A DNA stretch of 35,902 nt, taken from positions 1 through 35,902 of IMG/VR virus record IMGVR_UViG_3300037246_000634, one strand, 5' to 3'. This DNA is from a virus. Made by a program: the position numbers and the translations under genes. The notes under the pieces were generated by a model. It did no database searches. It was not told where the DNA came from and worked only from the letters and a program-made list of their open reading frames with translations. Position 1 is the stretch's first letter. Every line of letters begins with the position of its first letter. Shown in pieces: positions 1,390-22,464 of this stretch.

Positions 1390-1490
1390 ATCACGATTGC
1401 GTCACCGAACAGAATGAGCGTGAGCATCGCGCCGAATATCGCGGCTTCTACTCGCGGTGACATGCCGCTATTCTCCATTTGCTGCTTCAT
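1374..1490 (-). CDS. Very small membrane protein, one TM helix (38 aa)
   Basis: Begins MKQQMENSGM and carries one hydrophobic segment (about residues 15-36). It overlaps the downstream GTG-started membrane protein by 16 bp, an arrangement seen for coupled small membrane proteins. It overlaps the end of the upstream gene by 23 bp. At this length coding status rests on hydrophobicity and gene spacing only. Confidence 0.45.
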   Translation of the reverse strand: MKQQMENSGMSPRVEAAIFGAMLTLILFGDAIVMWLSP

Positions 1491-1650
1491 GGTCAAAACC
1501 TCCAACCTGCTCTAGTTCGTAATCGTGGATGCCGTGCGCCTTGATCTTCCAATCGTAAGGTCGGGGCATGGCTTCGCGTGCGAATTTCGCAGCGTAGTAA
1601 CTGGCGAAGCTGCGCTCGCGCGGTACTGAATCGTTTTTGTTGGTGCTCAT
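1468..1650 (-). CDS. Small hypothetical protein (60 aa)
   Basis: An open frame reaches up to 1785, but the first part overlaps the neighbouring gene, so the internal ATG at 1650 (MSTNKNDSVP) is chosen. The product is polar with a Tyr/Ala-rich central helix (SFASYYAAKFAREAM). Spacing to the upstream stop is 31 bp. No family recognised. Confidence 0.55.
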   Translation of the reverse strand: MSTNKNDSVPRERSFASYYAAKFAREAMPRPYDWKIKAHGIHDYELEQVGGFDHEAANGE

Positions 1651-1681
1651 TGTCTGATGTACCTTGTGAATACGAGACGAA

Positions 1682-1930
1682 TTATCTACTCCCGCGCCTT
1701 CTTTTTCTGTGCGGCGTGTCACTATTCGTAACACTCGCTCTATTCCATTGCCGGCTCGGGATGTGCCACCAGTCGATAAGCTCATCCAGGTGCTCGAGCG
1801 CGGCCGCCTGCTCGGCTTTGGTGGTGCGGGCGGTGAAAGATACCTCTAGGCCTTTGATCTTCGTGAGACCGCTCTGAGCGGCTGCTGAAGGGAAAGGCCG
1901 AGGCATCTTGACCAGCCGATTGGTGGTCAT
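1682..1930 (-). CDS. Small hypothetical protein with basic tail (82 aa)
   Basis: ATG follows the upstream TAA directly (TAAATG read on the minus strand). The middle is probably helical (TKAEQAAALEHLDELIDWW) and the C-terminus is strongly basic (PHRKRRRGSR), as in small nucleic-acid-binding proteins. No recognised domain. Confidence 0.55.
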   Translation of the reverse strand: MTTNRLVKMPRPFPSAAAQSGLTKIKGLEVSFTARTTKAEQAAALEHLDELIDWWHIPSRQWNRASVTNSDTPHRKRRRGSR

Positions 1931-2158
1931 TTAGTAGTTTCTCCGCTTGGCGGCCTTGATGCCGGCTTTGAGGCCTTCGCGGAAATCAGACGATCCGACC
2001 GGTGTGAGCGGCGCGAGCGGGCATAGCGGCAGGAGCACGAGGTCGCCCTTGACGCTCTTGTAGCCTTCCGAGAAGCCGTGGCAGAAGTCACCCTGGTTGG
2101 CGTGGGCGATCGAGCTCAACGCGAGCAGTACGATTACGAATAGGCTTAGTCGTTTCAT
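1931..2158 (-). CDS. Small secreted protein with signal peptide (75 aa)
   Basis: The frame extends upstream, but the ATG at 2158 is preceded by GGAG at good spacing and gives a clear signal peptide: MKRLSLFVIVLLALSSIAHA with cleavage expected after AHA. The mature part of about 55 residues has two cysteines (FCHGF, PLCPL) that could form a disulphide in the periplasm. Export is well supported; function is unknown. Phage periplasmic proteins of this size can act in exclusion or envelope modification, but that is only a possibility. Confidence 0.7.
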   Translation of the reverse strand: MKRLSLFVIVLLALSSIAHANQGDFCHGFSEGYKSVKGDLVLLPLCPLAPLTPVGSSDFREGLKAGIKAAKRRNY

Positions 2159-2208
2159 ATCATTCTCCAAAAAGGGCGCCGTGCGGGCCGACGCCAAACT
2201 GGTTGGGC

Positions 2209-2508
2209 CTAGCGCAAATATGCCGGGCCAGTCCAGGTGTAGCCGCGGCCGTATTCGCTGGTCGCGATGTTGCCGCGCGGATGGCGGGCCGGTGATTTCC
2301 AGCCGGCGGCCTTGAGGATGTTGCCGGTGGCGACTTCGATGAAGCCCCAAGCGCTGCCTTGGCCGCATGAAGTCATGATGATGCGGGCATATTTGCGGGC
2401 GCCGGTGTCAATTCGATAGGTCGGGGTATCGTCGCGCCCTTCGAAGAAAGGATCGGTTTTGACCTCTTCGGTGAGGCGGTCGGCAAACTCTTGGATCTGG
2501 TTGGTCAT
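2209..2508 (-). CDS. Conserved phage hypothetical protein (99 aa)
   Basis: ATG at 2508 (MTNQIQEFAD) is preceded by a GAGGAAAC ribosome site and follows the promoter at 2535-2562. The C-terminal half (GFIEVATGNILKAAGWKSPA followed by HPRGNI) matches a pattern I know from small hypothetical proteins of many tailed phages; their function is not established. It is the first gene of the promoter-proximal leftward transcript. A longer reading from 2550 would run through the promoter and is rejected. Confidence 0.75.
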   Translation of the reverse strand: MTNQIQEFADRLTEEVKTDPFFEGRDDTPTYRIDTGARKYARIIMTSCGQGSAWGFIEVATGNILKAAGWKSPARHPRGNIATSEYGRGYTWTGPAYLR

Positions 2509-2534
2509 GCCGCTGTTTCCTCGTGAATGAATGT

Positions 2535-2562
2535 ATAATACAGTAACCATTCAGTAACGCAA
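2535..2562 (-). promoter_or_regulatory. Leftward sigma70-like promoter P1 with GTTACTG direct repeat
   Basis: Read on the minus strand: -35 TTGCGT (2562-2557), 16-bp spacer, -10 TATTAT (2540-2535), about 26 bp before the ATG at 2508. GTTACTG occurs twice, 11 bp apart (one helical turn), at 2558-2552 and 2547-2541, between the two hexamers. The arrangement closely matches the rightward promoter at 4785-4812. Confidence 0.6.
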
Positions 2563-2596
2563 GGGAAACAGCCAAATAAACGGCTAAGTTTGTGAT

Positions 2597-2860
2597 TTAG
2601 TTCACAATTTCGAGCGGTTTGTTGCGTGTTTGGTCCATGAATTCAACCGGAGTCCGGAGGAAGCTGGCGGCGCGCATGCCGTGGACAACGATCGGCCGAA
2701 ACGCTTCCCATTCATCGCGTGAGAACGTTATGGCGCCACGCATTCGGTGGTTTGCCCGGCTGCCGATGCCGACGCGGAGCTCCACGATCGTGCCCTGGTC
2801 CATGAGCGCGGCATGCAAATAGAATCCAATCACTTCTGCTCGCCCTCGGTGGTGGGCCAT
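2597..2860 (-). CDS. Hypothetical protein (87 aa)
   Basis: Begins MAHHRGRAEV; its ATG lies one base past the upstream TGA. Predicted mixed alpha/beta with a central TFSRDEWEAFRPIV segment. It is the last gene before the P1 promoter region. No family recognised. Confidence 0.55.
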   Translation of the reverse strand: MAHHRGRAEVIGFYLHAALMDQGTIVELRVGIGSRANHRMRGAITFSRDEWEAFRPIVVHGMRAASFLRTPVEFMDQTRNKPLEIVN

Positions 2861-2861
2861 A

Positions 2862-3089
2862 TCATTCTTCGGGCGCTCGTAGATAGGATTGCGAAATCAC
2901 GTGTATTGTTACCTCAAATTTCTCAGCCAATTTTTTGACTGTGAGCTCGCGGAGCCCTCGGTTTATTTGGTTGATCTCGGCTTGGAGTACCGCGCGCCGC
3001 TTCTGCAGAGTCTCTTTTTCGTGCCAGCATTTCTCGATGAGGTCGATATCTTCATTGCTGAGCCTCATCGTACCATTCGCCTGTTTCAT
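2862..3089 (-). CDS. Small helical protein, possible HTH/coiled coil (75 aa)
   Basis: The ATG at 3089 (MKQANGTMRL) has AGAGGT upstream; ATG 3068 is an alternative start. Residues 10-52 are strongly helical and charged, and residues 50-70 (ELTVKKLAEKFEVTIHVISQ) resemble a helix-turn-helix in which the host sequence-reading helix would be VTIHVISQ. A DNA-binding role is possible. It overlaps the upstream gene by 38 bp. Confidence 0.6.
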   Translation of the reverse strand: MKQANGTMRLSNEDIDLIEKCWHEKETLQKRRAVLQAEINQINRGLRELTVKKLAEKFEVTIHVISQSYLRAPEE

Positions 3090-3348
3090 TTTCGGTTACC
3101 TCTTCCGGTATCGATTCACACATGGTGCCGCATTTGGTGCATTCATTAGTCTCAGGGAAACGCGCGCTTGGCTGGAAATCGTGCTCGCATTCGACAGTCT
3201 CTACAGTCGCCGGATCGGGCGTTTCCGAGAGCATTTGCTTGCACATTTCCAATGCGGCATAGCCTTGTTCTTTGCCGCTCAGATTACGCAGCAATTTGGT
3301 TGCCTCGCGCCACTCTTCGGTGGTTCCGAGTTCGTAGTATTTGGGCAT
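3052..3348 (-). CDS. Hypothetical protein with CxxC zinc site (98 aa)
   Basis: Begins MPKYYELGTT. The N-terminal half is helical; the C-terminal half has C54-E-H56, followed by CTKC and a further Cys (TNECTKCGTMC, about residues 69-77), a likely zinc-binding knuckle. No function assigned. Confidence 0.6.
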   Translation of the reverse strand: MPKYYELGTTEEWREATKLLRNLSGKEQGYAALEMCKQMLSETPDPATVETVECEHDFQPSARFPETNECTKCGTMCESIPEEVTENETGEWYDEAQQ

Positions 3349-3371
3349 GTTTCACGTGTTAACGCTAAAAG

Positions 3372-3704
3372 TTATAAGGATCTTGGGAAACTGAACATTT
3401 CGTGCTGACCGCCGAGCAACACATCAATCTGGTTTTTGCGCCGATGACTCATGTGTTTTCTGATGGTTTGCATCATTGTTCGCGCCTTGGCGCCTGAAAT
3501 ATAGGCCACATAAACCTCTTTATCGCCGAGCGACCCTTCTGGCGCATACGGGCCAAGAACGTTGCTCCCCAAATACAATGCGGCTCTTTGCACAGTGTCC
3601 AGATCCGTCATTTTAACGCTGATGCGAGGGTGCTTGCCGTCAAATGTAAAAGTGCCATCCCCTTCCAGTAATCCGCATAGCCAACCGAGGTCGAATTGAT
3701 TCAT
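3372..3704 (-). CDS. LAGLIDADG-type homing endonuclease (single motif, 110 aa)
   Basis: Start chosen at ATG 3704 (MNQFDLGWLC), preceded by AAGGAAA; a GTG 18 bp upstream is less likely. Residues 7-17 (GWLCGLLEGDG) match the LAGLIDADG signature with its acidic residue followed by Gly, then a beta strand (TFTFDG, PRISVKMTD) as in this fold. At 110 residues with one motif it would act as a homodimer, the usual state of single-motif enzymes, cutting a pseudo-palindromic DNA site. It sits as a free-standing gene among small leftward genes, so it is probably a mobile passenger. Specificity is unknown. Confidence 0.75.
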   Translation of the reverse strand: MNQFDLGWLCGLLEGDGTFTFDGKHPRISVKMTDLDTVQRAALYLGSNVLGPYAPEGSLGDKEVYVAYISGAKARTMMQTIRKHMSHRRKNQIDVLLGGQHEMFSFPRSL

Positions 3705-3778
3705 TTCTTTTCCTTCAGGCACAGCTACCGCCTTTCCCCTCTCGGTAGGTAAGCAGAGTTACCATTCCGTTTTGGAGT

Positions 3779-3808
3779 AGGCGCGCTGCCTTTAAGCAGC
3801 AAGCGCGC
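3779..3808. other. GC-rich inverted repeat at the stop of the 3792-4055 gene
   Basis: GGCGCGC and GCGCGCC flank the stop codon, with TGC/GCA pairing inside. No U-tract follows on either strand, so it is not a canonical intrinsic terminator; it may stabilise an mRNA end before the homing endonuclease gene. Confidence 0.35.
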
Positions 3809-4055
3809 CGCACTCATGCGTGAAGAGTCCGGTCCCTTCCACTTTTTCTGCGGCAAGTCCCCATTCAGACCGGGATGCAAGGCGGCAACAGAGCCCGGAA
3901 TAGTGCTTTTTGTCGAGAGGCACGCTTCTGCCCCACCAATCCCGTTCTCGGGTGGCCTTTGCGCGGTTGATCTTCGTGGGATGGTATCGGACAATAGGTG
4001 CCCAGTCGGGCAAGTGATTCGGAACCAGCCTTTCGATGATCGTTGACCGGTGCAT
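3792..4055 (-). CDS. Hypothetical protein (87 aa)
   Basis: Begins MHRSTIIERL. The frame is preferred over an overlapping 116-residue frame (3725-4075) because its composition is protein-like and lacks the Ser/Pro/Arg scatter typical of shadow frames. The C-terminal part (SEWGLAAEKVEGTGLFTHEC) has two Cys-containing stretches. No family recognised. Confidence 0.45.
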   Translation of the reverse strand: MHRSTIIERLVPNHLPDWAPIVRYHPTKINRAKATRERDWWGRSVPLDKKHYSGLCCRLASRSEWGLAAEKVEGTGLFTHECGALAA

Positions 4056-4086
4056 CTAACACCGTCGCCGACCACGTAAATGTAAG

Positions 4087-4121
4087 CCGCTTGTTAGCTA
4101 ACGCGCAAGCGGTTTCTTTTT
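4087..4121 (+). terminator. Rho-independent terminator, plus-strand orientation
   Basis: CCGCTTG (4087-4093) pairs with CAAGCGG (4106-4112) and is followed by TTTCTTTTT. The loop holds a small palindrome (TTAGCTAA). It points rightward although all neighbouring genes are leftward, so any transcript it ends would be antisense to the leftward operon. Confidence 0.5.
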
Positions 4122-4172
4122 GGCGCAACATATAGTGTCTAGCCTTCGCGATCGGCACTAGATATGGGTAAC

Positions 4173-4442
4173 TCAGCGTTCTGCTTCGGCTGTGACAACT
4201 GCCTTGAGCCCATCCTCAAGCAACTGGGCTTCGCTTCCTGCTTGTCTGTGAGCAGTAAGATTCCGCGCGGCTTCACTCAAACCAACAGCGCTTAGAATTT
4301 CGCCGGCCGTCTCGCGCGCGATCTCTCGGCCACGTTTCGACTTCATGCTGATCTTCATGTCAACGTGCAGATAGCGGCCATCGATGTAGACGGCAGAATT
4401 GCGGTGGTGCTTCAGGATTCTGGCGTGCTTTCGTTTGAACAT
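4173..4442 (-). CDS. Hypothetical protein (89 aa)
   Basis: Begins MFKRKHARIL with a basic N-terminus, then a short beta hairpin (SAVYIDGRYLHVDMKISM) and a long helical C-terminus. Overlaps the upstream gene by 31 bp. No recognised domain; the basic start could contact nucleic acid. Confidence 0.55.
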   Translation of the reverse strand: MFKRKHARILKHHRNSAVYIDGRYLHVDMKISMKSKRGREIARETAGEILSAVGLSEAARNLTAHRQAGSEAQLLEDGLKAVVTAEAER

Positions 4443-4597
4443 ATTTTCCTCGCTTTGATGGTTATGCTGTCGCTGTCGCTGTCGAAATATTCAGACAGAC
4501 ACCCCAGCGCGCACTCAATGGCATCCATTTCGGTCTCGCGCACGATGCCTTCCGTGAAGAACTTGCCTTCGATTTCTACTCGCCATCGGTCGGGCAT
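4412..4597 (-). CDS. Small acidic hypothetical protein (61 aa)
   Basis: ATG 4597 (MPDRWRVEIE) lies inside the end of the ribbon-helix-helix gene, so the two are probably coupled. A longer frame to 4813 is rejected because its extra part is a Gln/Arg-rich shadow. The product contains an acidic repeat (SEYFDSDSDSI). Function unknown. Confidence 0.55.
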   Translation of the reverse strand: MPDRWRVEIEGKFFTEGIVRETEMDAIECALGCLSEYFDSDSDSITIKARKICSNESTPES

Positions 4598-4731
4598 AGC
4601 TTCAGCCTTTTGTGTTCTTTGTTGATCAGTTGCTCCACCACCAGCGTCATGCTCGCGTTGGGGTTGGTGGTTTCGCGCAAATGCTGCTTGATCTGCTCGA
4701 GCCTCTCTTTGCTTTCGATGCGGACCTGCAT
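4576..4731 (-). CDS. Ribbon-helix-helix-like small DNA-binding protein (51 aa)
   Basis: ATG 4731 gives MQVRIESKERLEQIKQHLRE: a short beta strand with alternating residues (QVRIE) then two helices separated by a turn (NPNAS), the size and pattern of a ribbon-helix-helix (Arc/CopG) protein. Such proteins bind operators as dimers through the strand. As the first leftward gene next to the divergent promoter region at 4785-4812, it is a candidate regulator of one or both transcripts. Assignment is by pattern only. Confidence 0.5.
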   Translation of the reverse strand: MQVRIESKERLEQIKQHLRETTNPNASMTLVVEQLINKEHKRLKLCPTDGE

Positions 4732-4784
4732 TGTTAGCGCCTCGCGTCCTTTGATCCGGCCTGGCACAAAAATATTCCTTGTGG

Positions 4785-4812
4785 TTGAGTTTCGGTAAGG
4801 GTACAGTATCCA
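4785..4812 (+). promoter_or_regulatory. Rightward sigma70-like promoter P2
   Basis: -35 TTGAGT (4785-4790), 16-bp spacer, -10 TATCCA (4807-4812). Together with downstream sequence it matches the leftward promoter at 2535-2562 over 20 of 30 aligned positions from GG.TAC.GTAT to ATTCAC.AGG. CCTTGTG (4778-4784) and CACAAGG (4822-4828) form an inverted repeat around it. It precedes the recombination genes; the leftward block starts at 4731 on the other side. Confidence 0.55.
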
Positions 4813-4835
4813 TTCTACATTCACAAGGTCATGTC

Positions 4836-5057
4836 ATGCCGGAACTGACTCCACAAGAAACCGTAGAGCTCTGGGCCGAGACGGCTTTCGATGCTTGGGT
4901 CGATGAAGATCCGGAAATATTCGAAAAGTTCAAGAAAAGGGATTTGCCGACTTTCACTCTGGTAAAACAAGCTCACCAGGTTGGGTTTTGCATGGGCGCC
5001 ACCGCTGTCTTGGGGCCGGATCCTGACGAGCTACTAACTGCGTTGAAGGATTTGTGA
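4836..5057 (+). CDS. Small hypothetical protein (73 aa)
   Basis: ATG 4836 (MPELTPQETV) follows AAGG and the P2 promoter; the upstream part of the frame would overlap the promoter. The product is acidic and largely helical (ETVELWAETAFDAWVDEDP). It is the first gene of the recombination transcript and overlaps the next gene by one to four bases. Function unknown. Confidence 0.65.
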   Translation: MPELTPQETVELWAETAFDAWVDEDPEIFEKFKKRDLPTFTLVKQAHQVGFCMGATAVLGPDPDELLTALKDL

Positions 5058-10722: not shown

Positions 10723-11064
10723 ATGGCGCAGCGACCACAATGCCATCCATCCGTGAGGCCATCAGTAGATGTACCAGCACCAGACGTACTCGACAGCGGA
10801 GAATCTGACGCCGGAGCAGTCGGAGCGAGCGAACAGGATGCTCCAGAAGTCGTTGCAGCAAGTGCCGGCGCTGAGGAAACCGAAACGTCTGACCAACAGC
10901 CAGAAGCGACAGATGAAGCGCAGGCAGGCGGAGCAGACGAAGCAGTTTCGGGCGATGATGCAGAACCAACAGCTGCGGAAGACATTGCGCCCACATTTGA
11001 TGAGCCAGGCAATCCAGAAGATCAACCAACAACCGAAGAACCTGGCGGCGACGACAGCAACTAG
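10723..11064 (+). CDS. Acidic low-complexity frame (113 aa), alternative to 10769-11068
   Basis: ATG 10723 has GGGGT just upstream and follows the previous stop by three bases. The product is Ala/Glu/Asp/Pro-rich and probably disordered, with strong G at first codon positions, as in real genes here. It overlaps in another frame with the 99-residue basic frame at 10769-11068, and I cannot decide between them. Confidence 0.4.
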   Translation: MAQRPQCHPSVRPSVDVPAPDVLDSGESDAGAVGASEQDAPEVVAASAGAEETETSDQQPEATDEAQAGGADEAVSGDDAEPTAAEDIAPTFDEPGNPEDQPTTEEPGGDDSN

Positions 11065-11068
11065 CTAG
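10769..11068 (+). CDS. Basic Gln/Lys-rich helical frame (99 aa), alternative to 10723-11064
   Basis: MYQHQTYSTAENLTPEQSER leads into an amphipathic, basic helical protein (KRQMKRRQAEQTKQFRAMM). Third codon positions are very G-rich (CAG, AAG, CTG, GCG). The ribosome site is weak. It resembles other basic small proteins of this phage and overlaps the acidic frame at 10723-11064; one or both may be real. Confidence 0.45.
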   Translation: MYQHQTYSTAENLTPEQSERANRMLQKSLQQVPALRKPKRLTNSQKRQMKRRQAEQTKQFRAMMQNQQLRKTLRPHLMSQAIQKINQQPKNLAATTATS

Positions 11069-11081
11069 AATAAAACTCGCA

Positions 11082-11101
11082 GCGCCGCAGAAGAGCGGCG
11101 C
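11082..11101. other. Perfect 7-bp hairpin upstream of the small terminase
   Basis: GCGCCGC and GCGGCGC flank the hexaloop AGAAGA, with no U-tract. It lies in the 60-bp gap before the small terminase. A hairpin of similar form, loop GGAAGA, precedes the decoration and capsid genes (24201-24218). Confidence 0.5.
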
Positions 11102-11127
11102 GCCATTTAGCCGGAAGAGGCAAGTGA

Positions 11128-11574
11128 TTGAGCGATACAACAACCGATCCTGATGACTCGCCCTTAGAAGGCGAGCTTCTACTTTTCCGAGAAGACTACG
11201 AGGGCGAAGACCTCGGTGGCCGCCCTCGCCTGTACGAAAACCCTGCCCAATTCGATGAAGCCGTCTATGCGTACTATCTATGGTGCGCTGAACATCACGA
11301 GCCCATGACCATCACCGGCATGGCTCTCGCTCTCGGCTTCTGCTCAGTTCAAACGCTCTACAACTACGGCACTTACGATGGGTTTCTGGAATCCGTTGCG
11401 CGTGCTCGGTTGCTGGTTGAGTACGGCTATGAGAAGAACTTACACGGACCACACAGCGCTGGATCAAAATTCGCGTTAGCCTGCATTGGATCTGATGACC
11501 GCTGGCGATCGGTCAAAGAACTTGGAGGGGATGAGCTCATGACGCACGAAGATAGGCTGGCGCACTTGCGGTGA
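11128..11574 (+). CDS. Small terminase subunit, P22 gp3-like / packaging protein (148 aa)
   Basis: TTG 11128 is the only start after an in-frame stop and has GAGG at 7 bp, so a TTG start is likely. The acidic N-terminus leads to GGRPRLYENPAQFDEAVYAY and a helix-turn-helix, PMTITGMALALGFCSVQTLY (59-78), then a helical part (ARLLVEYGYEKNL) and SAGSKFALACIG. The order matches phage small terminases that recognise packaging sites and hand DNA to the large subunit. Oddly it is 5.6 kb from the large subunit gene. Confidence 0.8.
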   Translation: MSDTTTDPDDSPLEGELLLFREDYEGEDLGGRPRLYENPAQFDEAVYAYYLWCAEHHEPMTITGMALALGFCSVQTLYNYGTYDGFLESVARARLLVEYGYEKNLHGPHSAGSKFALACIGSDDRWRSVKELGGDELMTHEDRLAHLR

Positions 11575-11798
11575 TGTACAACTTTCACGGCACGGAAATC
11601 GAATGGCCAAGGGTGCGCGAAATTAGCGGGGATGCTGTGATTCAGGATTTCAGCAACGGGCGGTTTGTAGGGCCGGAAATCTTTCGGATCAAAAAAGAAG
11701 ATCTCACGCCAGGCTATGGCTTAGGCGCTGATCCGGTTGTGAGAGCAAAGATCCGCGAGATCACCGGTGAGCCTGCACCACTGGAGCACCTACGATGA
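11574..11798 (+). CDS. Hypothetical protein (74 aa)
   Basis: ATG 11574 shares one base with the terminase stop; GTG 11571 is an alternative. MYNFHGTEIE begins a compact beta/alpha protein ending IREITGEPAPLEHLR. First gene of the terS-terL island. No family recognised. Confidence 0.55.
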   Translation: MYNFHGTEIEWPRVREISGDAVIQDFSNGRFVGPEIFRIKKEDLTPGYGLGADPVVRAKIREITGEPAPLEHLR

Positions 11799-11998
11799 GC
11801 AGAACCGAGATCACCTTGATTGTCGCGGTCGGTCTCATTGCCGTTATTTCTGCACTGGGCTGGAAAATGGCCCAGGACGCCGAACGAAAAGAAATGGCTT
11901 CAGACTTTTGTGAAGGCGGCGTGGTGCTGGGCGACGGTGGAACGATGGGTGTCAGGCATCTGTTTTGCGACGATGGGAGGGTGATACACCTGCGATGA
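11795..11998 (+). CDS. Small membrane-anchored protein (67 aa)
   Basis: ATGA overlap at 11795. An N-terminal membrane segment (about residues 5-23, EITLIVAVGLIAVISALGW) is followed by a polar part with two cysteines (DFCEGG, LFCDDG) that could bond in the periplasm. Could be a signal anchor. Function unknown. Confidence 0.6.
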   Translation: MSRTEITLIVAVGLIAVISALGWKMAQDAERKEMASDFCEGGVVLGDGGTMGVRHLFCDDGRVIHLR

Positions 11999-12165
11999 AC
12001 TACAAACTGGCCTTGGCCTGCAGCTTTTGCGACAAAACAGGCGCAACGATCGGTGAGCGGCACCGCAGCAAAAAGTGGGTGCTGCGCCATGCTGTGCAGC
12101 TTCGTGGCTGGGTGCTTAAAGCTGGCGCGGTGTGGTGCCCTGGATGTGCGGAGCTCCTGCTATGA
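11995..12165 (+). CDS. Small zinc-ribbon-like protein (56 aa)
   Basis: ATGA overlap at 11995. Two CxxC pairs (CSFC at residues 9-12 and CPGC near 50) with about 37 residues between form a classic four-Cys zinc site; the middle is basic (GERHRSKKWVLRH). Possibly nucleic-acid-binding. Assignment by motif only. Confidence 0.6.
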   Translation: MNYKLALACSFCDKTGATIGERHRSKKWVLRHAVQLRGWVLKAGAVWCPGCAELLL

Positions 12166-12341
12166 GTGATTACACAAACGAAGATCTGGTGATCAAACTA
12201 GCAGACCCGACGCGCACCATTCTTGAAACCACGCCGAGCGGGAAGATAACGCTTTATGTCGCTGGCAAGCCGGTGGATCTGGATGAGCTCATCGAGGCGC
12301 TGCACGAGATCCGGCGGTGGGTAGAGGACAACCGAATATGA
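12162..12341 (+). CDS. Small hypothetical protein (59 aa)
   Basis: ATGA overlap at 12162. MSDYTNEDLV begins a small alpha/beta protein with a hairpin (SGKITLYVAGKPVDL) and a C-terminal helix (DELIEALHEIRRWVED). No family recognised. Confidence 0.55.
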   Translation: MSDYTNEDLVIKLADPTRTILETTPSGKITLYVAGKPVDLDELIEALHEIRRWVEDNRI

Positions 12342-12544
12342 TCAGCGGCACCGAAGCATCGGCAGCGGGCACAGCCTTGGCTCGATCGCGAGAAGCCGCA
12401 GCCTTTCAATATGACAAGTGCCCGATATGTGGCCGTAACGATTGCCCGCACAAAGAAATGCCGAGGATTCTAACGTGGCCGCTGTGCGTGATGTGGGCGA
12501 CGATCGGCTTTGTGTGGGGCGGCGTGGTGTTTTACCCGTGGTGA
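12338..12544 (+). CDS. Zinc-knuckle plus TM protein (68 aa)
   Basis: ATGA overlap at 12338. CPICGRNDCPH at about residues 28-38 provides a Cys3-His metal site, followed by a C-terminal membrane segment (LTWPLCVMWATIGFVWGGVV). A tail-anchored zinc protein; compare the similar layout at 15276-15488. Function unknown. Confidence 0.6.
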   Translation: MISGTEASAAGTALARSREAAAFQYDKCPICGRNDCPHKEMPRILTWPLCVMWATIGFVWGGVVFYPW

Positions 12545-12738
12545 TTATCCCGAGAGATCATGCCGATTCGGTTTGCAAGATGGGCGAAGGTGCTGATTGT
12601 TGCCGATATCTGATGGTGGGATCGGGCGGCCTCGAGTGCGCCAAAGATCCTGCAAACCACGGCTTTCGCAAAATCCTAGACCGGCGCAAGGATTCGATGG
12701 TGGCCAAGGGCGACAACTGCGATGGGTATATGCCATGA
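12541..12738 (+). CDS. Small Cys-rich protein, GTG start (65 aa)
   Basis: GTG 12541 overlaps the previous stop as GTGA. Five cysteines (VCKMGEGADCC, LECAK, DNCDG) are scattered through a soluble protein. Overlaps the next ATG as ATGA. No family recognised. Confidence 0.5.
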   Translation: MIIPRDHADSVCKMGEGADCCRYLMVGSGGLECAKDPANHGFRKILDRRKDSMVAKGDNCDGYMP

Positions 12739-13016
12739 CTGAGGGCGAATGGAAACTCATCCACGGCTTTGCCGCCATGATCGAGGGCGCTGAGCGCAAA
12801 GGCGCGCCGATAGATTTGCCGGAAGGTGCGCGCACGGTGAGCTTCACGCTGTCGGATACGATGGCCACTCGAGTGACGATGGCCATGCGCCAGGCTGCCG
12901 GCGAGATCGAATCACTGCAAGAAACCAAAGCCGAGCAGGCCGAGGCGCTGGAGTCACTGCGCAACCAGGTGAATTTGATCACCGATCCGAAAATCGTCAT
13001 ACCGAGAGCGCGATGA
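12735..13016 (+). CDS. Helical hypothetical protein (93 aa)
   Basis: ATG 12735 (MTEGEWKLIH) in ATGA overlap; the upstream part of the frame is a shadow. The C-terminal half (QETKAEQAEALESLRNQVNL) is a likely coiled coil. Function unknown. Confidence 0.6.
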   Translation: MTEGEWKLIHGFAAMIEGAERKGAPIDLPEGARTVSFTLSDTMATRVTMAMRQAAGEIESLQETKAEQAEALESLRNQVNLITDPKIVIPRAR

Positions 13017-13324
13017 GCGCAACCGAGGAACTGACAGCGCAGTTACGCGACCTCCGAATAGTGATTGTCTCGTGGGCTAAGCGCCAACAAATAGCCCGCA
13101 CCATAGAAGCCCTGGAGGCTGAGAACACCGATCTAGAGCAGGCGTGCGACGCTCACCAAGCGGATACCCTGCAAGCCACCAAGATAATATGGGCGCTCAA
13201 GGCGCAGATAGGGCAGTTGCTAAATCTGTCGCGCAACATTGACGAGCATCCCGAAGACTACGATGGCCCCTGCGAGTGCCGATTGTGCCTGACCTATGCT
13301 GCGGGGGATGGTGATGGCGGATAG
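13013..13324 (+). CDS. Coiled-coil protein with Cys cluster (103 aa)
   Basis: ATGA overlap at 13013. MSATEELTAQLRDLR then a coiled coil (ARTIEALEAENTDLEQAC) and a C-terminal PCECRLC cluster. The first 37 residues are paralogous to the start region of the next gene (13314 onward): EELTAQLR and TIEAL recur there. Probably a duplicated module. Confidence 0.6.
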   Translation: MSATEELTAQLRDLRIVIVSWAKRQQIARTIEALEAENTDLEQACDAHQADTLQATKIIWALKAQIGQLLNLSRNIDEHPEDYDGPCECRLCLTYAAGDGDGG

Positions 13325-13422
13325 CCCAGGAACTGATAGCCAGGTTGAAAAGCCCATTCAACGCCTGCTCGTTTAGGCAAGAATGTATCGACACCATAGA
13401 AGCTCTCACGAAGGAGTGCCAC

Positions 13423-13953
13423 ATGATGAGTGCGGGTTGTACGGAAGCAGATTTACTCAGACCGGAAGTGGCGAAGTTAGAGCAGGAAGTAGAAGCCCTG
13501 AAGGCTGAGAAATTAGAAACCCTGAAAGAAGCGGTTGTGATTCGGGAGCAAATAGAGTTTAAGGCGGCCGAGCTCCTGGCGCTGCAGACTGATTACGCCG
13601 ACATCCAGCGCCGGCTCACCGACTTGCACGAAAAGCACGCAGAGCTCGAGCTAGACAACCTGGGGCTGAGCAACAAGCTGGAAACATCCGAGCAGCGGCG
13701 CACCAGTCTGACACTAGAGATCCAGCGAGCCGGCAGCGTGGTGCAGCTGGCGCGGCAGATCCGAGTCGATCAAGAAAAGCTGGCCGCGCAAGGCGAGGGC
13801 GCGAACCTGCAACTGTACTGCTCAGACTGCCTAAAATCCGCCGGCGATGAAAATGATCATAAAACCGGGTACCTCGAGGAATGTCCGCAATGTGGTGGCA
13901 AAGGGCCGTTCATGTATTCATGGGATATCGCAGGCGTGCGCGCGCCACAATGA
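13423..13953 (+). CDS. Long coiled-coil protein with C-terminal zinc ribbon (176 aa)
   Basis: ATG 13423 has AAGGAG at 6 bp. The frame is open upstream to 13324, and the upstream residues (QELIARLK, then RQECIDTIEALTKE) resemble the start of the previous gene, so the ancestral start may be ATG 13314 with a one-base shift (see findings). Residues 15-125 form a coiled coil; the end has CSDC and CPQCGGKG, a zinc ribbon. Overlaps the next gene as ATGA. Function unknown. Confidence 0.6.
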   Translation: MMSAGCTEADLLRPEVAKLEQEVEALKAEKLETLKEAVVIREQIEFKAAELLALQTDYADIQRRLTDLHEKHAELELDNLGLSNKLETSEQRRTSLTLEIQRAGSVVQLARQIRVDQEKLAAQGEGANLQLYCSDCLKSAGDENDHKTGYLEECPQCGGKGPFMYSWDIAGVRAPQ

Positions 13954-14174
13954 TGGAATTCGAATATGGCCGCGGCTGCACCGGCACTGACGTGAAATCT
14001 TTCCGCAGGATGGCTTCGGCGCTTGCGGCTGATCTCGTGCAGATCAATGACAAGTGGGGCATCGATGATATGACGCTGCCGGAGTGGTCGATCGTAGATG
14101 GCAACGTGCAAGTGAGGTTTCGATACGAGAGCAAGAAATACTCCGAGATAACAATGGAGCCACCGACAGCATGA
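13950..14174 (+). CDS. Hypothetical protein (74 aa)
   Basis: ATGA overlap at 13950 (MMEFEYGRGC). Compact alpha/beta protein with a helix (KSFRRMASALAADLVQINDK) and a beta hairpin (GNVQVRFRYESKKYSEITME). No family recognised. Confidence 0.55.
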   Translation: MMEFEYGRGCTGTDVKSFRRMASALAADLVQINDKWGIDDMTLPEWSIVDGNVQVRFRYESKKYSEITMEPPTA

Positions 14175-14497
14175 GTGAGCCAACCTATGTGGGCATGCCT
14201 GGCAACGGCGAGCGACATCAATTGCGCCTTACGATGACGCAGAGCCCTGAAGGCGACTACACCGAATGCACCGTGCGGATCCCGAAGGCGCTCGAGGTTG
14301 AAGCCGGCCCGGCGCCAACGTATGCGACGGTGGGTGATAATTGGATGTGCCTGCAAGACGCAAAGATACTGGGAGAGCTCGGCTACCACGAGCTGGCGCC
14401 CGAAGGCCTGGCGATGAAGTTTCTGCGGCTGGCATGGCTGGCTGCTCACGATGAAATAGCAAGGAAAGATAACGGTGGATCGTCCGATGCCGATTAA
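14171..14497 (+). CDS. Hypothetical protein (108 aa)
   Basis: ATGA overlap at 14171 (MSEPTYVGMP). Beta-rich first half (RLTMTQSPEGDYTECTVRI), helical second half. Overlaps the nuclease-like gene by 23 bp. No family recognised. Confidence 0.55.
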   Translation: MSEPTYVGMPGNGERHQLRLTMTQSPEGDYTECTVRIPKALEVEAGPAPTYATVGDNWMCLQDAKILGELGYHELAPEGLAMKFLRLAWLAAHDEIARKDNGGSSDAD

Positions 14498-14975
14498 GCT
14501 GGATAGGTTCGAAATTGAGCAATGTGGATTTGTCACCTCTATCCGCGTTGCGCGGGTGCTTTCTGAAGATCTGCCAGAAACCTACGGATCACAGCGCCAG
14601 AATGTGGATGCGCAGCACAACATTTACGCTAGGCACTTCGAAGGCGCGATGGCTGAATGTGCGTGGGCAAAGCTCAGCAATCAGTATTGGCCTGGCGCCG
14701 GGGTCGAGATCGATGGCGTGGACGTTGGCGAGTGCGATGAGGTTAAGCACAGCGCGCATCAAGATGGGAGCGGCAAATACGATGGTCGCTTGCTGGTGCA
14801 GAAAAATGGCCGCGATGAACGCCGTTTCATCCTGATCGTGGGCAAGCTGGGCGTTTATCAATACCGGGGCTGGATGCCCGGCCTTGAAGCGAAGCAAAGT
14901 AAGTATTGGAATGAATCAATGCCGCGTCCGTGCTATGCGGTGCCGCAGGAAGATTTGCACAAGGGGAGAACATGA
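14475..14975 (+). CDS. Putative PD-(D/E)xK-like phage nuclease (166 aa)
   Basis: GTG 14475 is preceded by AAGGAAAG; ATG 14487 is an alternative. E61 in GAMAECAWAK, D83 in GVDVGECDEVKHS and the E89-V-K91 motif, then RLLVQKNGRDERRFILIVGK, give the helix-strand-strand order of PD-(D/E)xK nucleases. The ending (YRGWMPGLEAKQSKYW, then PCYAVPQEDL) recalls a hypothetical phage family with the same layout. Could act on host DNA or in recombination. Nuclease activity is inferred. Confidence 0.55.
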   Translation: MDRPMPIKLDRFEIEQCGFVTSIRVARVLSEDLPETYGSQRQNVDAQHNIYARHFEGAMAECAWAKLSNQYWPGAGVEIDGVDVGECDEVKHSAHQDGSGKYDGRLLVQKNGRDERRFILIVGKLGVYQYRGWMPGLEAKQSKYWNESMPRPCYAVPQEDLHKGRT

Positions 14976-14991
14976 GCAGGAGGAAAAGCCA

Positions 14992-15279
14992 ATGGCTGGT
15001 TCATATTGGATAAACGGGCAGGAATACATCAGCGTTGAGGTGTTCGAAGAGGCGGGAGATGAGCGCGATGAACTCCGCGTGCGCAATGGCGAGCTGATCG
15101 CCGAAATGATCATGCTCTCGAAAGCCCATCGAGAGCTCATGCAATCATGGGCCGGCCTTGCCAGATCGGCGCAGGAGCAGCCAGATGTGCTTCAAGCGCT
15201 CAGTGATATACGCGATGAGCTGGCGGCACATCGCCGAACGATACTGACCATGGCAACGAAGCAGGAGCCGGGCGGATGA
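14992..15279 (+). CDS. Coiled-coil protein with GELIAE module (95 aa)
   Basis: AGGAGG precedes ATG 14992 (MAGSYWINGQ). VRNGELIAEMIMLSKAHREL is a helix that recurs in form at 16133-16435 (VGELIAEGIEYKAENRKL). The rest is helical and ends QEPGG. A 13-codon frame from ATG 14972 overlaps the ribosome site and is not listed as a gene. Confidence 0.6.
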   Translation: MAGSYWINGQEYISVEVFEEAGDERDELRVRNGELIAEMIMLSKAHRELMQSWAGLARSAQEQPDVLQALSDIRDELAAHRRTILTMATKQEPGG

Positions 15280-15488
15280 ATGAAAAGGATTTTGGTCTGG
15301 CGCTGGTAAAGCAGGAAGGGCACAGCTTTTGCGGCTATTGCCACGCCGACGCTGCACCAGGTGAAGAACTCATGCACGAGCCCTGGTGTCCACCACCGGA
15401 GCCGCCGAAGCAATACAGCGCATGGAGCAACATCTGGCCGTTTGTATTGTTGATGGCGATCGCAGTGGCGGTGTCATGGCTGGTATGA
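15276..15488 (+). CDS. Zinc-site plus C-terminal TM protein (70 aa)
   Basis: ATGA overlap at 15276. CGYCH at residues 19-23, then H34 and C38 (ELMHEPWC), form a possible metal site; a membrane anchor follows (SNIWPFVLLMAIAVAVSWLV). Layout matches 12338-12544. Function unknown. Confidence 0.6.
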   Translation: MNEKDFGLALVKQEGHSFCGYCHADAAPGEELMHEPWCPPPEPPKQYSAWSNIWPFVLLMAIAVAVSWLV

Positions 15489-15730
15489 AAAACGTTATAC
15501 CGCATCCCTTCGGCGGCAAACGCACGCCTGAGCAGGTGCTCATCGATGCTCTGAGCGAATGTGAGAGCTACGAGCAAGTGGTGGTGGTCGCTGTCGATAA
15601 AGAAGGCGCTATCCGCACTGGCTGGAGCCAGGGCAGCAATCTGGAATTCATCGGAATGCTCACCTTTGCGACAGAGCGCATGTGTCAACGCGCGGCCTAT
15701 GATCCGGATGATCCGAACAACGATAAGTAA
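15485..15730 (+). CDS. Small alpha/beta hypothetical protein (81 aa)
   Basis: ATGA overlap at 15485 (MKNVIPHPFG). Contains strand-helix alternation: PEQVLIDALSECESYEQVVV, then AVDKEGAIRTGWSQGSNLEF, resembling a small phage family whose members are annotated only as hypothetical. No catalytic motif seen. Confidence 0.6.
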   Translation: MKNVIPHPFGGKRTPEQVLIDALSECESYEQVVVVAVDKEGAIRTGWSQGSNLEFIGMLTFATERMCQRAAYDPDDPNNDK

Positions 15731-15848
15731 AACCTGCAAATGCGGCGGCGAGCTCAAGCCGACTCGAGACTGTTATGGCTACTACACGTGCGCAAAGTGC
15801 CGTAGTGTGTATCACGAAAATGCACTCAACAAAGCGCAACTGAAATAG
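15708..15848 (+). CDS. Small zinc-ribbon protein (46 aa)
   Basis: ATG 15708 (or 15699) gives CKCGGELKPTRDCYGYYTC and then CAKC-type pairing, a four-Cys ribbon like those of phage proteins of this size. Overlaps the previous gene by 23 bp. Its stop TAG overlaps an ATA codon (ATAG) that could start the next frame. Confidence 0.55.
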   Translation: MIRTTISKTCKCGGELKPTRDCYGYYTCAKCRSVYHENALNKAQLK

Positions 15849-15985
15849 AATATCCAACCTGCAAAGTTTGCGGCCACCGTCACGCACTGCGTGAGCCGCA
15901 CATCTATAAAACCGGAAGAGGTAAAACAGATGATCGCGACTCCAAACGCAAAGCACGCCAAGGTAAGAGCTCGCCTGGCAAGTGA
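15845..15985 (+). CDS. Possible AUA-initiated zinc-knuckle protein (46 aa)
   Basis: The frame has no ATG/GTG/TTG. ATA 15845 would overlap the previous stop as ATAG, the same 4-bp style as neighbours. Residues 2-17 (EYPTCKVCGHRHALRE) look strongly coding: CxxCxHxH plus ALREPHIY. The second half, overlapping 15930-16136, is basic and may be a shadow. Alternatives are a frameshift joined to 15708-15848 or a decayed start. Confidence 0.35.
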   Translation: MEYPTCKVCGHRHALREPHIYKTGRGKTDDRDSKRKARQGKSSPGK

Positions 15986-16136
15986 CGTGGCCGCCTTTTT
16001 ATCTGATGGCCATACGATCGAGAAAGTGGACTACACTGCCAACCAGGGCTGGCGAAACCGACACGTGAAAACGCTGCCTCATTTGCCGATGATCGTCAAT
16101 CGGCGGAATAATCCGAATGCTGCAGGGTATCGTTGA
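15930..16136 (+). CDS. Small basic hypothetical protein (68 aa)
   Basis: ATG 15930 (MIATPNAKHA) has CCGGAAGAGG ending 8 bp upstream, a strong ribosome site. The product is basic with a helix (RARLASDVAAFLSDGH) and ends NPNAAGYR. Stop overlaps the next TTG (TTGA). Confidence 0.6.
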   Translation: MIATPNAKHAKVRARLASDVAAFLSDGHTIEKVDYTANQGWRNRHVKTLPHLPMIVNRRNNPNAAGYR

Positions 16137-16435
16137 GCGCTTGCTCAGGCGTGCAGCCCACACAGATCGAAATGCTCGATCCAGATGAACTGATCGCCGC
16201 GCTTCGATTGCGGGTCGGTGAACTCATTGCCGAAGGCATCGAATACAAGGCCGAGAATCGAAAACTCACCGCGATCTATAACGCTGCCGAAAGCCTAGCT
16301 TGCCCGATCGGCATGGAGGGTGAGGTAACGTTCAACACTTGCAGCCCGCTGGTGGAAGCGCTGATGGATAGCTTTCACGAGTATGATGATGGCCAGCACA
16401 AGCCAACGAAAACCGAAGAAGATGGCAATTCCTGA
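16133..16435 (+). CDS. Coiled-coil protein with GELIAE module, TTG start (100 aa)
   Basis: TTG 16133 overlaps the previous stop as TTGA; ATG 16172 is a fallback start. DPDELIAALRLRVGELIAEG and AENRKLTAIYNAAE are helical, paralogous in form to 14992-15279. It ends acidic and overlaps the PP-loop gene. Function unknown. Confidence 0.55.
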   Translation: MSACSGVQPTQIEMLDPDELIAALRLRVGELIAEGIEYKAENRKLTAIYNAAESLACPIGMEGEVTFNTCSPLVEALMDSFHEYDDGQHKPTKTEEDGNS

Positions 16436-17213
16436 ATACTTGAGCCTAGGCGCGGGCGTTCAATCCTCAACGATTGCCTTCATGGCTGCCTATGGGGAAA
16501 TCACGCCAATGCCGAAGGGCGCTATCTTCGCGGACACTGGGGCCGAGCCATCCGGTGTCTATGAGTGGCTGAAATGGATGGAGGAACTCTTGCCGTTTCC
16601 GGTTCACCGGGTAATGGAAAAGGACGGTCTGAAGGCCGCGATTCTGGGTTCCACATCTGGTTTTTTCGCTGCGCCGTTCTACACGACATCCGCGAATGGG
16701 GGCGGGTTAACGCGGCGCCAGTGCACCAGGGAATTCAAGATCGCTCCAATTACACGCAAGCTACGCGAGTTAGAGGGGATCAAGCCACGCCAGCACGCCA
16801 AGGGCACCGTCGCGATTCAGTGGATTGGTATTTCATGGGACGAAATGCAGCGCATGAAAGAGCCGAGGGTGAAATGGCTCAAACATCGGTGGCCTTTGAT
16901 CGAAAAGCAAATGACTAGGCTGCACTGTTTGGAATGGATGCGGGACCACAACTTTCCACTTCCCCAAAAATCGTCCTGCACATTCTGCCCATATCGCGAT
17001 AATGCCTCTTGGCGGGATATGAAAACAAACGATCCAGAATCTTGGGTTGATGCGGTGGCGATGGATGAGGCGATTCGCGATCGAGACAAGCCCCAACAGC
17101 TCTATGTCCACCGGTCTATGTCCCCGTTGGCGGATGCCGATCTTGCAGATCCGGCAAAAGATCAAATTGTCATGTCATTCATGGATGAGTGCGAAGGTAT
17201 GTGTGGGGTTTGA
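16422..17213 (+). CDS. PP-loop enzyme, PAPS-reductase/DndC-like family (263 aa)
   Basis: ATG 16422 (MAIPEYLSLG) gives the family start; ATG 16383 is upstream in frame. SLGAGVQSS (8-16) is the PP-loop that binds ATP or PAPS; FADTG (36-40) is the next family motif. C101 in RRQCTREFKI, C169 in HCLEW, and C186/C189 in SCTFCP give four cysteines that could hold an iron-sulfur cluster, as in DndC-type ATP pyrophosphatases. WIGISWDE and RWPLIEKQM are further family blocks. Likely adenylates or thiolates a substrate, possibly nucleic acid; substrate unknown. Directly precedes terL. Confidence 0.8.
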   Translation: MAIPEYLSLGAGVQSSTIAFMAAYGEITPMPKGAIFADTGAEPSGVYEWLKWMEELLPFPVHRVMEKDGLKAAILGSTSGFFAAPFYTTSANGGGLTRRQCTREFKIAPITRKLRELEGIKPRQHAKGTVAIQWIGISWDEMQRMKEPRVKWLKHRWPLIEKQMTRLHCLEWMRDHNFPLPQKSSCTFCPYRDNASWRDMKTNDPESWVDAVAMDEAIRDRDKPQQLYVHRSMSPLADADLADPAKDQIVMSFMDECEGMCGV

Positions 17214-18803
17214 ATGGCCGAAGCCGAAACCCTCGATGACGATTTCGAGATATTCCAGAAGCTCAAAGATGACTTCACGCACTACGCGCCGCGGTGCCTG
17301 CGGATTCGCACCAAAGAGCACGGTGTCATTCCGTTTGTGCTCAATGACGCGCAGCAATACATCCACCAGATCGCCGAGGCGCAGCAGCTCGAGTTTGGCT
17401 GGGTGCGGATCATCGTGCTCAAGGGCCGCCAGCAAGGGATGTCCACCTACATCGAGGGGCGTTTCTATTGGAAGGTCACGCATCTGGAAGGCCAGAGAGC
17501 CTATATTCTCACCCACGAGAGCGATGCAACGGCGAATCTTTTTGCCATGGTCGCGCGTTACCATGAGAATTGCCCGGTTGAAGTGCGCCCCCACACTGAC
17601 CGGGACTCGGGCAAGGAGCTAAATTTTGACGGACTCGACTCGGGTTATAAGGTTGGTACCGCGGGCACCAAAGGTACTGGACGGTCTTCTACTATCCAGT
17701 ATTTCCACGGATCCGAGGTCGCCTTCTGGCCCCATGCTGAGACGCACGCAACTGGCGTCATGCAGTCAGTACCATCGACAAGCGGTGAAGTGTTCCTCGA
17801 GAGCACAAGCGATGGGATGGGAAATTATTTTCATCAAACCTGGGTGCACGCAGTAGCGGGCCTCAACGATTTTATCCCGGTGTTCATTCCATGGTTTTGG
17901 CAATCTGAATACGAACTCGCGTACACCGAGCAAACGCTCGATGAGGACGAGATCGAGCTCCTGGAGCAGTACGGCGAAAATGAGCAGGAGAGCAAACGCC
18001 TATCTCCGGCCAACCTCATGTGGCGCCGCAAGAAGATTGGCGAATTCAAAAACGGCCCTGATGATTTCAAGCGCGAATATCCGAACGATCCACAGGAGGC
18101 CTTCGAATCGGCCGGCTATCGCCAGTTGATCCCGGCCGAGCATGTTGCGCGGGCGCTGAGGAATCGAGATATTGAGGCGCGTGGGCCGATCGTCATGGGT
18201 GTGGATCCAGCTCGCTTTGGCGATGACCGGCTCGCGATTGCGCTGCGCCAAGGCCGCGTGATGTTTGATATCGTTGCCTATTCCAACAAGATGGATCAGA
18301 TGGAGATCGTGGGCCTATGCCGGCAGATCCTCGATGCCATGCCGATAGATCGCTGCTTCATCGATGTGGGTATGGGCGTTGGTGTGATCGACCGATTGCT
18401 CGAGCTCGACTACCAGCAAGTGCGGGCCGTGGACTTCGGCGCCGGTGCCTTCAATTCGATCGCCTACATCAACCGGCGCAACGAAATGTGGCAGGAAATG
18501 GCCGACTGGTTCGAGGACACGCACGTGCAGCTGCTCACCGACAACAGCGCTGACGCCGATAATCCGCATGAATTCGAGAAAAAGGTGCAGGCGATCACGA
18601 TGGATCTATGCTCTGTCGAGTACAAATTCAACAGCCGGAACATCATGGTGCTCGAGGATAAGGACTCAACTAAGGCGCGCAGCGGGCTCAGCCCAGATAT
18701 GGGCGATGCGGGTGCGTTGACATTTGCCGAGCCAGTGGCAGAGTATTACCACGAGGGCGCCGGCGATCATGATGATGGGCGCCATAAAAAAACAGGGTAT
18801 TGA
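17214..18803 (+). CDS. Large terminase subunit (529 aa)
   Basis: ATG follows the previous stop directly. Walker A-like KGRQQGMS (70-77), a Walker B-like strand with E168 in YFHGSEVAFW, a coupling-type VFLESTSDGMG (193-203), and an RNase H-type nuclease with GVDPARFGDD (D331), FIDVGMGVGVID (D384) and DMGDAGALTF near the end. It pumps DNA into the prohead through the portal and cuts the concatemer. The length and the early DNA-binding part are normal for a phage large terminase. Confidence 0.93.
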   Translation: MAEAETLDDDFEIFQKLKDDFTHYAPRCLRIRTKEHGVIPFVLNDAQQYIHQIAEAQQLEFGWVRIIVLKGRQQGMSTYIEGRFYWKVTHLEGQRAYILTHESDATANLFAMVARYHENCPVEVRPHTDRDSGKELNFDGLDSGYKVGTAGTKGTGRSSTIQYFHGSEVAFWPHAETHATGVMQSVPSTSGEVFLESTSDGMGNYFHQTWVHAVAGLNDFIPVFIPWFWQSEYELAYTEQTLDEDEIELLEQYGENEQESKRLSPANLMWRRKKIGEFKNGPDDFKREYPNDPQEAFESAGYRQLIPAEHVARALRNRDIEARGPIVMGVDPARFGDDRLAIALRQGRVMFDIVAYSNKMDQMEIVGLCRQILDAMPIDRCFIDVGMGVGVIDRLLELDYQQVRAVDFGAGAFNSIAYINRRNEMWQEMADWFEDTHVQLLTDNSADADNPHEFEKKVQAITMDLCSVEYKFNSRNIMVLEDKDSTKARSGLSPDMGDAGALTFAEPVAEYYHEGAGDHDDGRHKKTGY

Positions 18804-21611: not shown

Positions 21612-21917
21612 TTGCCGGAAGAGGTAAGGTTAGAATACCCGCAAATTACCGGCGATCAATTCGAGCTCTGGGAGGCCAACCCGGTCACCAAAGCCTATCT
21701 CCGCTGCCTCGCGTGGAAAGAAGCCGACACCGTTGAGCATACCGGCACCGGCAGGCTCGTGGATTCATCCAATGCCGACATGACGCACGCCTTAGTGCAT
21801 CGATCGCTCGGCCAGCAAGACGCCTACAAGGAAGCCGCGCTGCCTGAAAAGCTGCTCGAGTTTTACCGCATGGTCTATCGACCACCACCGCCAGCAAAAG
21901 AAGAAACCGATGAGTGA
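21612..21917 (+). CDS. Hypothetical protein in head operon, TTG start (101 aa)
   Basis: TTG 21612 is preceded by AGGAG; no ATG lies further upstream in frame. Starts MPEEVRLEYP (TTG read as Met), helical middle (NPVTKAYLRCLAWKEADT), ends with PPPPAKEETDE. It overlaps the co-chaperonin start by 8 bp. Perhaps a head assembly accessory; no family. Confidence 0.6.
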   Translation: MPEEVRLEYPQITGDQFELWEANPVTKAYLRCLAWKEADTVEHTGTGRLVDSSNADMTHALVHRSLGQQDAYKEAALPEKLLEFYRMVYRPPPPAKEETDE

Positions 21918-22464
21918 ACCCGATCTCGATGACCGCATGGCCCGCGAAGCCCGTGATGGTGAAGCCGACGCCGATTTAATGGCGAAGCTAGACAGAATGA
22001 CTGATGGTGAGGAAGCGGCGCTCGATAAGATCTTGCCACCAGGTGCTCGAGAGCGTGAGGATGCAGCACGCGAGATGGCTCGGGCTGTATTCGACGCGGC
22101 GCGTGCGCTCATGGCAACCGGCATGTTGCAGGCGGTCGGCTACCGCGTGGTGATCAAGCCGATCGAAGCAATCCTCACGCTCGAGGAAGCTGAGGCCGGG
22201 GTCGCGCCGCACCTGGCCGAGAAAGGTTTCCAGGTGAAAAGTGAAAAGGAGCGCCAGCGCGAAGAGCACGGCGAAAACCATGGCGTGATCATCCACCTGG
22301 GACCAACGGCATTCGAGCGGCTCGGAGGCATTCCGATGTGGGCCGATGTGGGTGAAACGGTTGTTTTCTCTCGCTATGCCGGCACGGCCGTAGAGCATCC
22401 GCCTGGATCTGGCAACAAATATCAAATCATGAATGATGAAGACATCTTCGGGAAAATCGTATGA
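21910..22464 (+). CDS. Phage GroES-like co-chaperonin with helical N-terminal extension (184 aa)
   Basis: Residues 76-184 follow the Cpn10 order: AVGYRVVIKP (75-84, like DRVIVKR), a polar mobile-loop region ending with FQVKSEKERQREEH, HGVIIHLGP (124-132, like GEVLAVG), DVGETVVFSRYAGTAVE (146-162) and YQIMNDEDIFGKIV (171-184, like LIMSESDILAIV). The first 75 residues are a helical extension not seen in GroES. T4 gp31 and similar phage proteins replace GroES to fold capsid proteins in GroEL; genes between portal and scaffold suggest the same task here. The mobile loop lacks a clear GIVL, so GroEL contact is uncertain. Confidence 0.75.
   Translation: MSEPDLDDRMAREARDGEADADLMAKLDRMTDGEEAALDKILPPGAREREDAAREMARAVFDAARALMATGMLQAVGYRVVIKPIEAILTLEEAEAGVAPHLAEKGFQVKSEKERQREEHGENHGVIIHLGPTAFERLGGIPMWADVGETVVFSRYAGTAVEHPPGSGNKYQIMNDEDIFGKIV

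Follow-up and report, generated by a model that had tools for sequence, protein, structure and literature searches.

A string of small genes between the two terminase genes of an uncultured tailed phage as a putative accessory-gene locus

Small hypervariable loci between conserved phage genes are a known kind of locus. In the hotspots of P2 and P4, 1-5 kb of high-turnover sequence lies between two conserved genes near the packaging site and carries functions in phage-host or phage-phage conflict. In this paper we describe a similar island of small genes in a 35.9-kb record of an uncultured tailed phage (IMGVR_UViG_3300037246_000634, positions 1-35,902, hereafter the window). The P2 hotspot, flanked by gpA and gpQ and adjacent to cos, contains defence systems whose activity has been tested, whereas the island of the window splits the small terminase gene (terS) from the large one (terL) and is made up of about 20 microgenes with putative functions at most. 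Another comparison is the ninR region of lambda, which is located between the replication genes and Q. Like the island, ninR is a series of small genes that run in one direction and overlap stop to start, but the NinB-like gene of the window lies outside the island. What differs here is the placement between both terminase genes and the density of microgenes, and we found no report of a terS-terL hotspot in the open-access literature.

The island and its turnover among relatives

In the window terS and terL are 5.64 kb apart and enclose 19 small open reading frames (ORFs) at 11574-16435, of 46-175 amino acids (aa) with a median of 74, and one 263-aa gene, g20 (Table 1). The initial annotation had described about 19 micro-genes here, mostly joined by overlaps, at least seven of them with CxxC-type motifs, two combining a zinc site with a C-terminal membrane helix and several forming coiled coils. 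Each of these points is borne out by our counts, and g20 is a twentieth island gene beyond the limits set at that time. Exactly -4 junctions (ATGA, GTGA, TTGA or ATAG) join 13 of the 21 gene pairs, with one further TGATG, compared with 4/20 among the late genes (Fisher p = 0.011). CxxC is present in 7/19 small genes, where about 1.5 are expected from per-protein shuffling (0/2000 shuffles reach seven), and the cysteine content is 2.85% in the island versus 0.86% for the other genes tested. The zinc-type motif is combined with a C-terminal hydrophobic helix in g06 and g15. Five products look like coiled coils by eye (g08, g09, g10, g14 and g19), some with weak Pfam coiled-coil matches; PADLOC matches of g10 to CorA and LmuB (about 1e-3) were dismissed as coiled-coil noise. 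The island is a real observation, beyond chance, and its overlap geometry fits a translationally coupled string.

Such a distance between terS and terL is unusual. We counted the spacing in 137 metagenomic or isolate relatives with detectable terS, near-duplicates included, and found both genes within 100 nt of each other in 109, in agreement with the earlier statement that they usually adjoin. The spacing is 100-500 nt in 12 relatives, 500-1300 nt in 11 and more than 1300 nt in five. The best matches of the window TerL among annotated terminases (tblastn) are Pseudoalteromonas phage vB_PspP-H6/1, in which terS and terL overlap, a Vibrio phage and Escherichia phage PTXU04. A scan of GTDB genomes gave a single TerL relative (42%), in a contig of an Omnitrophota metagenome-assembled genome.

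On the TerL tree the window groups with four of the relatives, which we label with L-numbers: L086, L087, L090 and L154 (99% support in the Shimodaira-Hasegawa-like approximate likelihood ratio test). Together with L088, a near-copy of L087, these form a clade with 64-74% TerL identity that was retrieved by a tighter TerL profile. A scan with the single TerL protein had given no match, and a five-sequence profile led to relatives at 45-52%, in which no microgene homologues were found. In L090, terS (phrog_309 7e-30) lies 2.9 kb upstream of terL, with different genes between them. L086, L087 and L154 were scored as having a large island since the sequence upstream of terL (1.7, 5.2 and 1.0 kb, respectively) runs to the end of the contig with no terS found. 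With this scoring, at least four changes on the tree are required to account for the large islands. Outside the clade, L095, L117, L134 and L142 hold 2.2-3.8 kb strings of small, often overlapping ORFs, some of them with CxxC motifs.

Except between near-copies, each clade member differs from the others in island content, and the recognised products include no structural protein. In L086 we find a C5 methyltransferase together with a zinc ribbon. L087 carries zinc proteins, a sulfotransferase, an Asp/Asn-hydroxylase-like gene and a C5 methyltransferase, and L090 a cysteine-rich protein, a sulfotransferase-like gene, a weakly hydrolase-like gene and a zinc protein. The island of L154 holds homologues of g17b and g18 and three further small genes. 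Some genes are common to pairs of relatives: the C5 methyltransferase to L086 and L087 (3e-71), the sulfotransferase to L087 and L090 (1e-34), a 69-aa gene to L087 and L154 (8e-22), and the zinc-knuckle and SutA-like pair g17b and g18 to the window and L154 (1e-5 and 8e-9). Shuffled controls for these matches gave near zero. Downstream of terL the clade is collinear, with genes at 34-88% identity (56-66% for the gene in the portal position, 81-88% for that in the capsid position). As in described hotspots, two conserved genes flank the locus in the window and L090, and turnover among close relatives is high. Identical content with structural roles was not seen among the related phages, and this varying content beside collinear structural genes lends good support to the proposal that accessory genes have gathered into one string.

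Turnover is also visible between L087 and L088. Their identity is 99.98% across the 8.8 kb that start at terL and 98.9% across 4.3 kb upstream of it. L087 carries about 0.9 kb extra immediately before terL, with ATGGC at both ends, and this piece holds the C5 methyltransferase gene (7.9e-38). Whether it was gained in one line or lost in the other is not proven. Immediately upstream of its methyltransferase gene L087 has ATGTGTGGGGTTT, which encodes the C-terminal MCGV of the g20 family (...DGMCGV-stop). Of 208,319 frame stops, 45 show the pattern [ED]G[MILF]CG[VILT]-stop, and apart from L087 these all belong to g20-family loci or the window. The simplest history would be that a g20-type gene was formerly present in the L087 line and was lost but for its last codons.

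A cassette of the same kind as in L087 also occurs at another site. At 33761-34770 of the window, after the structural genes, a sulfotransferase-like N-terminus is followed by an Asp/Asn-hydroxylase-like gene with 42.6% identity to that in the L087 island. The different locations suggest that such genes move between accessory sites.

As a whole, these observations are probably best explained by a recurrent accessory-gene locus with turnover at the terS-terL junction, whose products are putative takeover or counter-defence factors. The comparison shows genes gained, lost and exchanged singly or in small groups, with the module from terL on remaining collinear. Incoming genes would fit when each start overlaps the preceding stop, and the overlap geometry suggests that the string could be read from one message with terS and terL. 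For gp3-type terminases such as that of P22, the packaging start lies in or near terS. DNA ends from packaging at terS could, speculatively, promote recombination nearby, by analogy with the cos-adjacent hotspots of P2 and P4. Several points weigh against this explanation. Both island borders are visible in the window and L090 only, the contigs of L086, L087, L088 and L154 stop short of terS (for L087 it was not found in the whole 5.2 kb preceding terL), and all sequences are metagenomic. The placement beside a packaging site is a speculative analogy only. Furthermore, 13/19 microgenes have no homologue or family match in the searches made, and no known anti-defence protein was recognised among the island products, ten of which were run through PADLOC.

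We also considered whether the island might be a displaced delayed-early operon of the ninR type, in which a relocation of terS and the lysis genes left ordinary middle genes of a temperate-type phage stranded between terS and terL. The string of small overlapping genes would suit this origin, as would the presence of NinB-like (phrog_319) and HNH (phrog_131) genes in the window and a possible role of g18 in regulating transcription. Moreover, the L007 microgene string that includes a SutA-like gene precedes terS instead of following it. However, the NinB-like and HNH genes are located outside the island, and nin genes do not include methyltransferases, a sulfotransferase or a hydroxylase. At the TerL identity found within the clade, a fixed regulatory operon would also be expected to keep its content, which is not the case, and we regard this origin as unlikely.

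Two further explanations appear very improbable to us. The location between terS and terL, the shared orientation and the overlaps might point to accessory factors of packaging or of the head that act together with the terminase and are functionally tied to it. But no credible structural or packaging family match was obtained, the content is not conserved, and the 109 TerL relatives with adjoining genes manage without them. Part of the string could instead be non-coding, made of short ORFs in a decaying region. Codon usage is near neutral in g04, g06, g17, g17b and g18, and g17b has no start other than ATA. Against such decay, codon usage speaks for the called frame in the other 14 of the 19 genes and the junctions are tight. 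Additionally, g17b and g18 are conserved in L154 in the same order and again as an overlapping pair.

Candidate functions of g18, g20 and g13

The closest described protein to g18 is SutA of Pseudomonas aeruginosa (PDB 7f0r; PMC9300723). Its residues K60, R64, L67, M71, F74, L75, G78, G79, V81 and I84 lie at the interface with the beta protrusion of RNA polymerase (RNAP) (PMC9300723). g18 matches the RNAP-binding domain of SutA, PF20661, above the cut-off (Table 1; 30.1 bits in a second run). Five of the ten interface residues are identical in g18 and three are similar, and positions 60 and 79 are H. In contrast to SutA, g18 consists of the binding domain only. It begins about seven residues ahead of the domain, without the long acidic N-terminal region with the wedge loop, and its C-terminal part differs as well. 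Since the acidic arm is needed by SutA for activation, g18 cannot be called SutA and may work in another way, for instance by occupying the site of SutA on RNAP. We regard the PDB matches of g18 to type II secretion protein J (E 0.6-0.9) as chance.

SutA-like genes are also found in other phages. L007 encodes a protein with this domain (40.8 bits) in its microgene string upstream of terS. In L174, a phage retrieved without the TerL query, a similar gene (4679-4909; 50.3 bits) lies immediately upstream of a terS-like gene, and it was the sole addition from two scans for further phage genes with the domain. Our searches of the open-access literature gave no description of phage proteins resembling SutA. 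It is possible, though we hold it only tentatively, that these phage proteins, g18 included, are free-standing SutA-type binding domains that lack the activating N-terminal arm and are encoded next to the terminase genes or where the late module begins. They would sit on the RNAP beta protrusion and divert or block host transcription, with the surrounding island supplying rotating takeover microproteins.

Pseudomonas B3-like phages show weak matches to the same domain (E 0.1-0.3). In Pseudomonas phage B3 itself (L175) the stretch lies in ORF3 (2447-2914; E 0.3), which adjoins GemA-like and Mor-like genes. A 32-nt inverted repeat with 84% complementarity brackets g17, g17b and g18 in the window (15522-15553 and 16123-16154), which could be chance.

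The sequence and the structure model identify g20 as a predicted PP-loop ATP pyrophosphatase of the SspD/PAPS-reductase type, most likely a sulfur-chemistry enzyme. The model is confident (predicted local distance difference test, pLDDT, of 89), and its nearest folds are PAPS reductases, NcsA and LarE, with thiolase folds also near. The match to SspD agrees with a PP-loop ATPase of that type, and like SspD, DndC and PAPS reductases g20 has invariant cysteines. The ending ECEGMCGV or a close form is found in nearly all family proteins checked, and the family is common among unrelated phages. No SspABC or DndBDE partner of the SspD and DndC systems was recognised beside g20 among the island and neighbouring genes scanned, which are part of the window genes.

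For g13, a PD-(D/E)XK-like motif seen by eye suggests that it may be a nuclease of this type; its structure model has low confidence (pLDDT 35) and a scan for homologues gave none. A tblastn search with the concatenated microproteins matched for g07 alone, and a DNA-level search of annotated phages with window positions 11000-17300 gave no match. The remainder of the island most likely encodes zinc-binding and membrane microproteins with putative takeover or counter-defence roles. C5 methyltransferases are a classic route of escape from restriction. Their presence at the locus in two relatives supports counter-defence for the locus, not for any single gene of the window. The SspD-like g20 and the SutA-like g18 are further indirect pointers in the window itself. 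Judged by gene content, host takeover or counter-defence is the best reading of the island products, plausible and unproven.

Genomic layout and meaning of the locus

Left of terS the window contains recombination genes, an endolysin and a holin-like gene. A series of small ORFs on the minus strand faces against the other genes at 1000-4900. Within a head-module gene at 21910-22464 we find a GroES/Cpn10-like domain (PF00166 3.8e-7), kept across the clade, which could represent a phage co-chaperonin. Promoter and terminator scans did no better on the window than on shuffled sequence.

Table 1. Genes of the terS-terL island and its two borders in the window
Gene	Description	Position	Strand	Evidence and remarks
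terS	small terminase subunit, GP3_package family, left border	11128..11574	+	TTG start; PF16677 5.3e-10; phrog_606 4.4e-11
g02	74 aa	11574..11798	+	TGATG junction with terS; codon usage; no family match in Pfam/phrog searches
g03	67 aa, hydrophobic helix at N-terminus	11795..11998	+	
g04	56 aa, putative zinc ribbon CxxC...CxxC	11995..12165	+	codon usage near neutral
g05	59 aa	12162..12341	+	codon usage
g06	68 aa, CPIC...CPH motif and C-terminal hydrophobic helix	12338..12544	+	
g07	65 aa, five cysteines	12541..12738	+	46.6% to part of uncultured phage LR756500
g08	93 aa, helical/coiled coil	12735..13016	+	
g09	103 aa, coiled coil, CxCxxC at C-terminus	13013..13324	+	
g10	175 aa, coiled coil and CxxC...CxxC	13426..13953	+	own Shine-Dalgarno AAGGAG
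g11	74 aa	13950..14174	+	codon usage
g12	108 aa	14171..14497	+	codon usage
g13	162 aa, phrog_18407 (function unknown)	14487..14975	+	5.7e-15; DVG..DEVK signature
g14	95 aa, helical	14992..15279	+	own Shine-Dalgarno AGGAGG; codon usage
g15	70 aa, CGYC...C motif and C-terminal hydrophobic helix	15276..15488	+	
g16	81 aa, phrog_7268 (function unknown)	15485..15730	+	2.5e-6
g17	49 aa, zinc ribbon	15699..15848	+	phrog_8315 3.4e-4; weak counterpart in L087 island, E 9e-4
g17b	46 aa, CKVCGHRHALREPHIY zinc-knuckle-like	15845..15985	+	ATA start in ATAG overlap with g17; homologue in L154
g18	68 aa, SutA RNAP-binding-domain-like	15930..16136	+	PF20661 29.8 bits, cut-off 29.3; homologue in L154
g19	100 aa, coiled coil	16133..16435	+	TTGA overlap; codon usage
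g20	263 aa, predicted PP-loop ATP pyrophosphatase	16422..17213	+	phrog_424 5.6e-43; SspD 1.2e-15; C-terminus ECEGMCGV
terL	large terminase subunit, right border	17214..18803	+	tblastn to annotated terminases

The genes of the terminase subunits are usually side by side, and this arrangement is used for finding and classifying phages. A rotating gene store between them would mean that the terS-terL spot can serve as an insertion site. It would also give a simple rule for locating further accessory genes, which is to look between terS and terL. The island of the window offers about 19 microproteins and a candidate RNA-polymerase-binding factor for study.

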